DNA of 21,162 nt from a virus: positions 1 through 21,162 of IMG/VR virus record IMGVR_UViG_3300018063_000047; one strand, written 5' to 3'. How positions within the stretch are numbered: the stretch's first letter is position 1; each line of letters opens with the position of its first letter. The translations under genes and the position numbers were made by a program. Shown piece after piece: positions 9,701 through 13,845 of this stretch. The notes below the pieces were generated by a model that saw nothing but the letters and a program-made list of their open reading frames with translations, had not been told where the DNA came from and ran no database searches.

Positions 9701-9970
9701 ATGAGTAGAGAAAGGCTAAGAGACCGACTACAGAGAGGACAGAGTATGCACGTCTACGATATTTTCACGGCCGAAGTTTCCCAGGGAGCGAAGCTACTGT
9801 GGCTGTATCTGAGATACGAACCAGGGGTGCACAGTCAGCAGGATCTTGCTACGGAGATCGGAGCAACCATGCAGAGCGTCAACAAGTACGTACGTGAACT
9901 GAGAGAGGATGGATGGATCACTGTGGAGAAGAGTAAGGACAGCCGCAGATTCGTATATGACATCGTCTGA
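9701..9970 (+). CDS. Winged-helix DNA-binding protein, regulator or replication initiator
   Basis: This 89-aa protein has a basic N-terminus (SRERLRDRLQRGQS). It is followed by a winged-helix domain: a first helix (AEVSQGAKLLWLYLRYEPG, about 25-43), then HSQQDLATEIGATMQSVNKY as the helix-turn-helix (about 44-63), and a wing with WITVEKSKDSRRFVYDIV at the end. This is the pattern of HTH_36/MarR-like domains in phage and plasmid regulators and initiators. AAGGA lies six bases before the ATG. It stands divergent from the virion operon and is closed by a strong terminator, so autogenous control or late-operon switching is plausible. Binding to the ATGACA repeats 600 bases away is another possibility. 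Confidence 0.7.
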   Translation: MSRERLRDRLQRGQSMHVYDIFTAEVSQGAKLLWLYLRYEPGVHSQQDLATEIGATMQSVNKYVRELREDGWITVEKSKDSRRFVYDIV

Positions 9971-10476: not shown

Positions 10477-10698
10477 GATCAACCCCTTTCAGTGGGTAGG
10501 GATAAAACTTGAGAGAGTAAAAATGTAGATAACAACTATTGTAGCGGATGAGGTAGGGGAAGTAGTGAAGAGGGGTACGATGACAGAATGACAAAAATGA
10601 CAGCTTTTTGGAGGTAGACTTTTCTCTATGTAGGAGGAGTTGGTACTGTAGTAGTTATGTCCGGTATGTATACCAGCCGAGTGGGAGGGGAGTTACTT

Positions 10699-10719
10699 GT
10701 CTTACTTCTAGGGTAAGAC
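10699..10719. repeat. Inverted repeat GTCTTAC-N7-GTAAGAC
   Basis: A perfect 7-bp inverted repeat with a 7-base spacer lies inside the gene-free stretch. GTCTTAC occurs again at 10997-11003 between the tandem promoters, so the arms may be sites for one DNA-binding protein. Other than this, bases 10603-10730 and 10483-10579 show nothing I can name. Confidence 0.55.
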
Positions 10720-10794
10720 CTTGTAAATCTTGTCATTTTTGTCATTTTACTAGAAAAAAAAGTAAGTAAAACGTCACAGCCCAGTAATAGCAAG

Positions 10795-10812
10795 GGTTAC
10801 TGACTAGTAACC
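10795..10812. repeat. Inverted repeat GGTTACT-N4-AGTAACC
   Basis: A perfect 7-bp inverted repeat lies immediately before the triple ATGACA block. The 9-mer GGGTTACTG, which includes its left arm (10794-10802), recurs at 10895-10903 before the last inverted block. It may be part of the origin's structure. Confidence 0.55.
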
Positions 10813-10945
10813 TCGATGACAAAACCGATGACAAACCAATGACAGATTTCAAAAGTTGTCATCCCCACCTCGCACCGGTTGGGTTCTTGTCATCGGGTTA
10901 CTGTCATCTTGTCATCGGTTTGTCACCGCCTACGACTCTAGCTAG

Positions 10946-10974
10946 TTGACAACCTTCAATAACTTGTGTATACT
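10946..10974 (+). promoter_or_regulatory. Upstream rightward promoter P1
   Basis: TTGACA (10946-10951), 17 bases, then TATACT (10969-10974): consensus -35, ideal spacing and a five-of-six -10. It follows the last origin repeat and reads toward the antitoxin-like and primase genes. Confidence 0.85.
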
Positions 10975-10999
10975 GTTACTTAAGCAGTTGCACTTAGTC

Positions 11000-11088
11000 T
11001 TACCTAAGAAATCCCTTTACTAAGATTTTACCTAAAATAGGGTCTTCAGACTTGACAACCTTCAAGAAATGCTGTATCCTTTAGGTAT
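11000..11088. promoter_or_regulatory. Repeated TTACCTAA motif around the tandem promoters
   Basis: TTACCTAA stands at 11000-11007 and 11028-11035. Its complement, with one change, stands at 11081-11088, just past the -10 of the second promoter. CTTAG/CTAAG arms (10993-11008) flank the first copy. The arrangement fits operators for a repressor, most simply the Phd-like product of the next gene. A related palindrome, AGGTATTACCT, is at 11510-11520 in the primase leader. Confidence 0.45.
11052..11080 (+). promoter_or_regulatory. Downstream rightward promoter P2
   Basis: TTGACA (11052-11057), 17 bases, TATCCT (11075-11080). It shares the 14-mer TTGACAACCTTCAA with P1, 106 bases upstream, so a protein that binds the shared bases would act on both. 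The first start codon follows at 11133. Confidence 0.8.
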
Positions 11089-11132
11089 AGAGTAAAACAC
11101 CAAGCAACAACCATCCCTATCAAGGAGAAAAT

Positions 11133-11318
11133 ATGTCTGTCACCGCTGAGAAGATCTACCAGGGAATCAAGTATGACCGTGCTGTATCTCTTCTGGACTT
11201 CCGTACCAACATGTCAGAGGCTCTTGAAGCTCTGGAGAATGGAGAAGTACTGCTTCTCTCCAAGTACAATAAGGCTGTAGCTCTAGTAACAGGTATCGAT
11301 CATGGACACAACGGCTAG
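11133..11318 (+). CDS. Phd/YefM-like antitoxin-type DNA-binding protein
   Basis: This is a 61-aa protein. The segment DFRTNMSEALEALENGEVLL (about 23-42), followed by LSKYNKAVALVTG, matches the Phd/YefM core: a helix 'lr.nlsealeaienGe.v', a strand, and 'nKp.Av.v'. These proteins fold as DNA-binding dimers that repress their own promoter, and a C-terminal tail neutralises a toxin. Here the tail is very short. AAGGAG lies five bases before the ATG, and two strong promoters with repeated motifs lie upstream. No Doc, YoeB or RelE-like toxin follows. It may serve as a plain repressor of the replication unit, or guard against a host or rival toxin. Confidence 0.55.
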   Translation: MSVTAEKIYQGIKYDRAVSLLDFRTNMSEALEALENGEVLLLSKYNKAVALVTGIDHGHNG

Positions 11319-11559: not shown

Positions 11560-13845
11560 ATGCTTGCAAACACTTCAAACCTTCCTCATGCGCTTGACTA
11601 CGCACAGCGCGGGTGGAGGGTAGTACGTACGGACACCGGACGCAAATACCCCACGATGAAGAACTGGCAAGACAACGCCACTACTGATCTCGCGCGGATC
11701 GAACACTGGTACACCCAGTATCCCTCTTCGAACATCTGCATCGCTACGGGAGAAGAATCTAACCTATTCGTCTTGGACGTCGATGGAGAAGCAGGGGAAT
11801 CAACACTTTTCGATCTTCAGCGTACTTACTCGCAGCTTCCTCTGACATACACAGTCAGCACACGCTCCGGTGGCCTTCATTACTACTTCACCTGGGAAGG
11901 AATTGACTTCCCCTTGGGTAACTCAGCCGGAAAGCTGGGAACAGGATTGGATACGCGAGGTAGTGGAGGACAGGTTGTGGCTCCACCATCCTACGCAGTA
12001 GCCGACCACAAGGGGCCAGAGGGCTTCTACAGCGTCCTGAGAGACGTTCCGGCAGTCCCGGCCCCAGAGTGGCTTCTAGCCCTTCTACGCCCTGCACAGA
12101 GCTTCTACGAGGCAGGTACGCTTGCCGAGGAACTACCGGATACGGTCTCCTGCTATGGCGGTAAGGCACTGAAAAGCGCACTCAGTAACATCCTTAATGC
12201 CCCACAAGGCACACGCCAGACTACTATGTACCAGGAGACCCTCAGCATGAAAGCAATTTTTACAGCAGGTGGCCTAGGAAACGATGAAGAGTACGTAAAG
12301 ACTTCCCTGTTTCAAACTGCCGTCGACAGTGGTTTGTCCGAAGACAGAGCCGAGAGAGTATATACCGCATGGCGTGATACGCCTGTCTCTCCCCGTAAGC
12401 TTCCAGAGTCCGTAGGTCTCTCTCCTGACGATTTCACTGAGGACCCTGAGCTTCCTACGTATTCCCTAGATGACTTCGGCAATGGTGACAGGATAATTGC
12501 TGAGCATGGGGATTCTCTTGCCTACATCTCGGACAAAAGAGACTGGAGTACCTATACGGGTTCCAAGTGGGAATTGGGTTCCGCTACCGCGCTTATCCGT
12601 GCCAAGGTAAAGGACGTACTTCGTAACATGCAGGAGACCGAAGAGCAGGGATGGACTCCTGGAGACGACCGTAAGGCTTTTTTGACTCATTGCAAGAAGT
12701 CCCGTTCAACCGCATCTGTAAATGCCGCATTCAGTACTCTCGCTGATGAGGCGTCTCTGCACAGAAAGTCTGAGCAGTTCGACAAGGATCTTCACCTGAT
12801 CAACTTCCTCAATGGGACCATGGATACACGCAACCTGTCTTTCCGCGCTCACGACAAGAACGATTACATCACTCGTGAAATGCCCATCAATTACAATTCG
12901 GAGGCAAAGGCGCCCGTATGGGAGAAATTCTTGTCAGATGCAGTACCCGACGACAGTGTTCGTCGTTTTCTTCAGATTCTCGTGGGTTACACACTGACTG
13001 GTCATGGCACCGACAAGGTTATCCCGTGGCTACACGGTCCTAAGAATACTGGTAAGTCCCGAGTCACGGTTACTCTGACAAAGCTTTTCGGAAGCGATTA
13101 TGGTGTAACGGCCAGTGCTTCTCTGCTTTACGCGCAGCAGCATCAGTCCTCTGGTCCCAACGAAGCTCTTGATGCCCTGAGATCTCGTCGTTTTGTGGCT
13201 ATGTCTGAAACCGGTAAGCATGAATTCGACGAGGAACTTCTGAAGAAGCTTTCTGGTGGAGGCGAGAATATCAGTTCCCGTGGTCTTCAAGCCAAGCAGT
13301 CCGAGTGGAAGGCTGAATGTGTCATCTGGGTAGGTTCCAATACCACTCCTTACATTCGCAGTAACGACAACGCCACTTGGGGAAGGTTCTTGCCCATTGA
13401 GTTCAATAACGTAGTCACTCCCACGTCACCAGGTTATGATCCTCTGCTACAGGACAAGCTTGACGGAGAACTAGAAGGCATCATGACCTGGGCAGTTGAG
13501 GGACTGCGCATGTACAACCAGGAAGGCAAGCTCGTGATTCCCGAGATCGTTACTGGTTATATCAAGTCCTTCCGTGACGCTGCGGACTTGGTAAGTCAAT
13601 TCCTTACGGACATGTTCGAAGATAATCTCTACCACGAGAACGCGGAAAAGACTACCGAGAACATGATTCCAAAGACTCAGGTGATTGCCGACTTCAATAA
13701 TTGGGTGGCCAAGTACGGACACGGTAAGCCTTGGAAGACTGCCACACTCGTCGAGCGCCTGGAAAGCCTAGGGCATTCGGAAGGACGCACAGCTAAGGTA
13801 CGCGGATTCAAGGGCATTATGAGCCCGTACACTACACCCTTTTAA
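11560..13845 (+). CDS. PrimPol-D5 primase-helicase fusion
   Basis: This is a 761-aa protein. Residues 1-175 are a bifunctional primase/polymerase domain: LDVDGEAG (72-79) with the paired acidic residues, SGGLHYYF (103-110), and GSGGQVVAPPS (134-144). After a linker, about 400-660 is a D5/P4-type SF3 helicase: NFLNGTMD (415-422), Walker A GPKNTGKS (493-500), Walker B-like FVAMSE (545-550), sensor VIWVGSNTTPYI (588-599) and the arginine-finger segment WGRFLPIEF (607-615). The last 60 residues look like a winged helix. It would unwind the origin and prime synthesis, with the host polymerase completing the work. AGGAG lies eight bases before the ATG. It is the only large replication gene. Confidence 0.95.
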   Translation: MLANTSNLPHALDYAQRGWRVVRTDTGRKYPTMKNWQDNATTDLARIEHWYTQYPSSNICIATGEESNLFVLDVDGEAGESTLFDLQRTYSQLPLTYTVSTRSGGLHYYFTWEGIDFPLGNSAGKLGTGLDTRGSGGQVVAPPSYAVADHKGPEGFYSVLRDVPAVPAPEWLLALLRPAQSFYEAGTLAEELPDTVSCYGGKALKSALSNILNAPQGTRQTTMYQETLSMKAIFTAGGLGNDEEYVKTSLFQTAVDSGLSEDRAERVYTAWRDTPVSPRKLPESVGLSPDDFTEDPELPTYSLDDFGNGDRIIAEHGDSLAYISDKRDWSTYTGSKWELGSATALIRAKVKDVLRNMQETEEQGWTPGDDRKAFLTHCKKSRSTASVNAAFSTLADEASLHRKSEQFDKDLHLINFLNGTMDTRNLSFRAHDKNDYITREMPINYNSEAKAPVWEKFLSDAVPDDSVRRFLQILVGYTLTGHGTDKVIPWLHGPKNTGKSRVTVTLTKLFGSDYGVTASASLLYAQQHQSSGPNEALDALRSRRFVAMSETGKHEFDEELLKKLSGGGENISSRGLQAKQSEWKAECVIWVGSNTTPYIRSNDNATWGRFLPIEFNNVVTPTSPGYDPLLQDKLDGELEGIMTWAVEGLRMYNQEGKLVIPEIVTGYIKSFRDAADLVSQFLTDMFEDNLYHENAEKTTENMIPKTQVIADFNNWVAKYGHGKPWKTATLVERLESLGHSEGRTAKVRGFKGIMSPYTTPF

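Follow-up and report, generated by a model that had tools for sequence, protein, structure and literature searches.

The window analysed here is the whole 21,162-nt stretch of IMG/VR record IMGVR_UViG_3300018063_000047, the ends of which overlap by 123 bp; it therefore represents a complete circular genome of 21,039 bp. Its morphogenesis genes are on the minus strand and are nearest to those of the Streptomyces phage Dagobah (TerL, 53%; capsid, 49%). With head genes approximately 50% identical to those of the 47-kb Dagobah, this 21-kb tailed phage is unusually small for its lineage, and its GC content is only approximately 50% alongside Dagobah-like head genes. No close relatives were found through the primase (viral and genome contigs) or through the DNA (phages), and we found neither Rfam matches nor tRNAs.

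The array lies in the stretch between a minus-strand gene and a plus-strand group formed by a 61-amino-acid open reading frame and a primase-helicase gene (Table 1). The primase-helicase combines PrimPol and D5 domains with a putative C-terminal winged helix. For the small open reading frame, the analysis identified no toxin partner. A second winged-helix protein, encoded at 9701–9970 (the 9701 protein), has weak similarity to the N-termini of replication initiation proteins.

The hexamer ATGACA (TGTCAT on the opposite strand) occurs in 12 exact copies between 10580 and 10915, six per strand, in the order >>> << >>> <<<<. Both the count and the place are as given in the initial annotation of this DNA, which had listed blocks of three direct, two inverted, three direct and four inverted copies. 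Start-to-start spacings are 8, 9 | 134 | 9 | 76 | 12, 11 | 18 | 31, 14, 8, so that the 8–12 bases reported within blocks describe all blocks except the last, which contains steps of 31 and 14. A thirteenth, near copy (GTGACA, minus strand, approximately 10920–10926) closes the array. The inverted repeats and A-rich stretch noted earlier are also real; the inverted repeats measure 29 nt (79%), 19 nt (89%) and 13 nt (100%).

Table 1 Coordinates of the array, its surroundings and the neighbouring genes in the window
Feature	Position	Strand	Description
Winged-helix gene, 89 aa	9701–9970	+	HTH_Crp/MarR domain matches; flanked by minus-strand genes
Intergenic stretch	10483–11132		Between a small minus-strand gene (weakly holin-like) and the plus-strand group
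Iteron set 1	10580–10745		ATGACA on plus strand at 10580, 10588, 10597; on minus strand at 10731, 10740
Imperfect inverted repeat, 29 nt	10587–10615 / 10718–10746		79%; within set 1
Spacer between sets	10746–10815		70 bp, 63% AT; first 30 bases 77% AT
Iteron set 2	10816–10926		ATGACA on plus strand at 10816, 10828, 10839; on minus strand at 10857, 10888, 10902, 10910; plus near copy GTGACA
Inverted repeat, 19 nt	10826–10844 / 10910–10928		89%; set 2
Sigma-70-like promoter	10946–10974	+	TTGACA-17-TATACT; −35 box one base off the iteron word
Promoter-like copy 2	11052–11080	+	TTGACA-17-TATCCT; 83% identical to the copy at 10946–10974
61-aa open reading frame	11133–11318	+	Between array and primase gene; weakly like Phd/YefM antitoxins
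PrimPol-D5 primase-helicase, 761 aa	11560–13845	+	PF09250 (1e-39), PF08706 (1e-26); proposed initiator
Wing segment codons, residues 739–752	13774–13815	+	HSEGRTAKVRGFKG; C-terminal winged helix; proposed ATGACA reader

The array is rare by every measure applied to the genome. ATGACA is its most clustered hexamer and the array its densest two-way hexamer cluster, with 35 copies per kb inside and 0.9 per kb elsewhere. The whole window has 31 copies against 13.7 expected from dinucleotide shuffles, and the word is not dense elsewhere, an outcome that the initial annotation had named as refuting an origin. In 200 order-1 Markov genomes, no two-way hexamer cluster exceeded six copies. The primase gene follows about 650 bp downstream of the array, the end of which is approximately 630 bp before the gene start, and there is no similar cluster 3′ of the primase in the window. 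The two promoter copies form a 29-nt repeat that adjoins the array.

The 30-base windows with the highest AT content in the region start at 10731–10741. By analogy with P4 and PICI origins (PMC6092414), the spacer between the two sets is a candidate melting site. Detrended cumulative GC skew turns within the array, at 10810, where a turning point had been anticipated, but it does so as a maximum; we set the skew aside as uninformative because a local G-rich stretch drives this maximum. Origins are not usually marked by a skew maximum.

Recurrence of two-way arrays at D5 loci

A scan by word only, for viral contigs with three close ATGACA words, gave 119 loci, 13 of which (12 without a duplicate) have the dense two-way layout. 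Two control words gave such arrays at 0 of 119 loci (CAATGA) and 6 of 120 (AACAGT), indicating that many different words serve this class, with unequal frequency. A D5-class or related P-loop primase-helicase was present at 7 of the 12 array loci, compared with 1 of 37 other pattern-matched records (p = 7e-5). These helicases have D5_N (L027, L042, L063 and L109), DUF5906 (L036), DUF3987 (L046) or VapE (L019) domains; the array abuts or overlaps the helicase gene, or lies at most 0.15 kb away, in six cases; in L042 the distance is 2.7 kb. The records of L022, L032, L044, L065/L115 and L103, which have dense two-way ATGACA arrays, contained none of the four helicase families; several of them are fragments. 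Three other loci (L069, L073 and L076) have ten to twelve ATGACA words in the same direction within 400 bp, which may be coding repeats or another kind of site.

Choosing loci by protein similarity alone gave a concordant picture. At 18 of 24 nonredundant D5 loci, the D5 stop codon marks the beginning of the best two-way hexamer cluster in the entire locus, and the words mostly differ. In a wider and more diverse set of 91 nonredundant loci, 44 have their best cluster at this position, against an expectation of approximately 6 under uniform placement, and the words vary between lineages; a two-way cluster of six or more is absent from 19 of the 91. Relatives with the same kind of replication gene had been expected to carry the array: distant ones often do carry arrays, but with other words. 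The best cluster falls at most 1.5 kb upstream of D5 in eight of the 91 loci, with L545 and L558 looking convincing. In L545 the word TGTAAC is arranged >>> << >> <<<, nearly the block order of the window, approximately 730 bp upstream of D5. Such cases make the upstream place of the window array unusual, not unique.

Blind two-way scans of positive controls ranked the annotated 302-bp origin of Sfi21 (AGTAAC) first, the rep_origin of A2 (ACGGGA) first, and crr and ori1 of P4 first and second. Scanning the sequence for two-way words thus finds origins of D5 phages. These comparisons with D5 loci and annotated origins strongly support the earlier proposal of an iteron origin beside a primase-helicase gene. 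The array is indeed unlike simple tandem iterons, as was also remarked, but alternating layouts prove to be normal for the class: they occur in P4 crr and ori1, A2, Sfi21 and unrelated viral contigs.

Wing residues and origin words

In P4 alpha and SaPI Rep the C-terminal domain binds the origin repeats (PMC4234260, PMC7581432), and in Cch2, a D5-type helicase of SCCmec, it binds an origin in which AAGTG is needed (PMC7581432). At the D5 locus of Staphylococcus phage IME1365, the commonest hexamer just 3′ of the primase is AAAGTG. In an AlphaFold model of the window protein (mean pLDDT 85), residues 739–752 form a hairpin after the last helix, and the model is closest in fold to D5-type primase-helicases of large DNA viruses. 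The putative winged-helix C-terminus has no Pox_D5 Pfam match. A single-sequence model of the C-terminal 100 residues reached a pLDDT of 55 and was left out.

We compared words and C-termini among D5 proteins with helicase parts at least 85% identical, sampling 80 D5 loci per scan (381 loci match one pattern set). The same word was used in 51 of 51 pairs with C-termini at least 97% identical and in only 8 of 43 pairs at 80–90%. At 70–80% the word was again shared in 18 of 23 pairs, nearly all of them from one AGGGCA group, which makes overall C-terminal identity a poor guide to the word. Proteins with the same recognition helix (YKMRKQKFGAEM) but different wings have different words. Across 30 loci, word similarity showed no rank correlation with the identity of either the core or the C-terminus; a signal is confined to near-identical proteins and to single wing residues.

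Two wing positions track the word among 26 different wings that fit [KR][FYL]-x5-X6-x-G-X9, with words of the form NTG[AT]N. At X6, Met goes with A as the first base (9 of 9), and Arg (8 of 8) and Lys (5 of 6) with G. At X9, Asn, Ile, Val or Tyr goes with A as the fifth base (11 of 11), and Arg, Lys, Thr or Trp with C (15 of 15). Minor classes apart, the rules hold in 25 (X6) and 26 (X9) of the 26 wing variants (loci L134–L213 and L448–L607). The X6 rule emerged from the first 80 loci and was then borne out by new wings with Met (L462 and L479) and Arg (L487/L491, L488 and L492), whereas the X9 rule was derived post hoc from all the data. Fisher values of 1.6e-6 and 1.3e-7 overstate the certainty, because X9 was seen after the fact and the wings are related by descent. 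The rule applies to families with NTG[AT]N words and wings with the glycine, and the wings of L027 and L109 were not counted as support.

The window wing (HSEGRTAKVRGFKG) aligns gaplessly in the same register as its relatives but without the glycine, with A745 at X6 and R748 at X9. Its word, ATGAC followed by A, agrees with the prediction from Arg at X9 and is also as found with other non-basic residues at X6. L042, which likewise uses ATGACA, has Ser at X6 and Arg at X9.

The initial annotation had named two possible binders, the 9701 protein and the D5 C-terminus. Word changes follow D5 wing changes, which favours the second and disfavours the first; the putative reader of the array is thus likely to be the D5 C-terminal winged helix. 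We lean, by a modest margin over even, towards a wing code in which X6 would set base 1 and X9 base 5 of NTG[AT]N. Origin specificity would then be switched by a few wing residues that change together with the array, keeping related replicons off each other's origins, and the window would be an upstream PrimPol-type case. A limited literature search found no earlier report of the correlation, which is weak evidence of novelty; the correlation may be new. If the code is true, protein sequence could serve to predict the origin words used by many phages, satellites and cassettes, and it would become possible to test directly how replicons that are nearly identical keep their origins separate.

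The array as a probable replication origin and its known counterparts

The array has the features of an iteron-origin class: clustered two-way noncoding words, an adjacent D5/SF3 primase-helicase, and two sets flanking an AT-rich stretch. We consider it very probable that this circular phage starts its replication here, with the array bound by the phage's own PrimPol-D5 protein. Several copies of the protein would attach to the ATGACA words, each by its C-terminal winged helix. The two sets, on either side of an A-rich stretch, contain words of both orientations, so that a pair of D5 hexamers could be built in opposite directions. The hexamers would melt the A-rich stretch, the SF3/D5 motor would unwind outwards, and the fused PrimPol domain would prime both forks in a bidirectional start. 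More speculatively, the TTGACA −35 boxes are close enough to the word that the initiator could dampen its own promoters. Counting against an origin are the upstream place of the array, the D5 loci that have no cluster of six or more, and AT-richness limited to the first 30 of the 70 spacer bases.

It is improbable, in our judgement, that the array is instead an operator through which a regulator such as the 9701 protein controls divergent early and late promoters while replication starts elsewhere. The setting would suit this: the array sits between divergent genes, immediately ahead of two sigma-70-like promoters with −35 boxes one base from the word, and the 9701 protein has HTH_Crp/MarR matches. 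Against it, experimental or annotated origins share the layout, such arrays adjoin D5-class genes, and changes of word accompany changes of the D5 wing. The 9701 protein may be a further binder, and the array may have a regulatory side role.

Very unlikely, and more so than an operator, is a stem-loop origin of the pRN1 kind, in which the PrimPol-D5 protein recognizes hairpins formed by the inverted repeats and the words serve solely as arms of the stems. Each iteron set does fold on a single strand far better than shuffles (z = −4.7 and −3.7), and pRN1 ORF904 has the same order of PrimPol, SF3 and winged helix together with a stem-loop origin of approximately 100 nt (PMC4234260). Folding into stems is, however, a necessary outcome of words that face both ways. 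Set 1 would require a loop of approximately 100 bases, the same-direction doublets at 8–12 bp, as in P4 and A2, are unneeded for a stem, and the wing-word correlation suggests that duplex DNA is recognized. Repeat arrays also occur as partition and incompatibility sites, but a site of that kind unrelated to initiation, or a chance cluster, is barely credible given 12 copies against the simulated maximum of six and no partition protein match among the proteins scanned.

Taken as an origin, the array places the replication start of a complete small phage without a close relative in the collections searched. Arrays of this type are already known from P4, dairy phages and staphylococcal pathogenicity islands; the window adds a case with an upstream place and a PrimPol-type primase. 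Three other origin types do not describe it. A SaPI/PICI-type position, immediately 3′ of rep, is at odds with an upstream array and no 3′ cluster; a classical plasmid origin of the Rep_3/RepA type, the iterons of which are long and run in one direction, with six-base two-way words and no Rep_3 match among the proteins scanned; and a pRN1-type origin (a large stem-loop 3′ of the gene, without iterons) with iterons present upstream of the gene.

The closest known match to the plan of the window is P4 ori1, ordered >>> < [AT] >> upstream of alpha. In both ori1 and crr, as in the window, short two-way words stand in doublets of approximately 10 bp, and alpha combines an SF3-type helicase with a C-terminal winged helix (PMC4234260), as the window protein probably does. 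The P4 word is GGTGAACAG rather than ATGACA, the primase domain of alpha is TOPRIM rather than PrimPol, and P4 carries crr as an additional region 3′ of alpha, whereas the single array of the window has no similar counterpart 3′ of the primase.

PICI origins consist of an AT-rich region flanked by two iteron sets (PMC6092414). SaPIs and PICIs share this arrangement and a D5-type helicase with the window, the primase and helicase being sometimes fused (PMC6092414, PMC7581432), but they are satellites with origins immediately 3′ of rep, whereas the window is a complete phage with its array upstream. Sfi21, whose element is an independent origin according to secondary literature (PMC6356513), and A2 likewise have short two-way words in a noncoding gap beside a D5 primase; their AGTAAC and ACGGGA arrays are 3′ of the gene, in contrast to the upstream ATGACA of the window. 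pRN1 ORF904 shares the PrimPol, SF3 helicase and winged-helix architecture, and its origin the inverted-repeat structure, but pRN1 lacks iterons and has its stem-loop origin 3′ of the gene. The architecture was suggested to go with stem-loops (PMC4234260); contrary to that suggestion, the window pairs a PrimPol-D5 protein with iterons.
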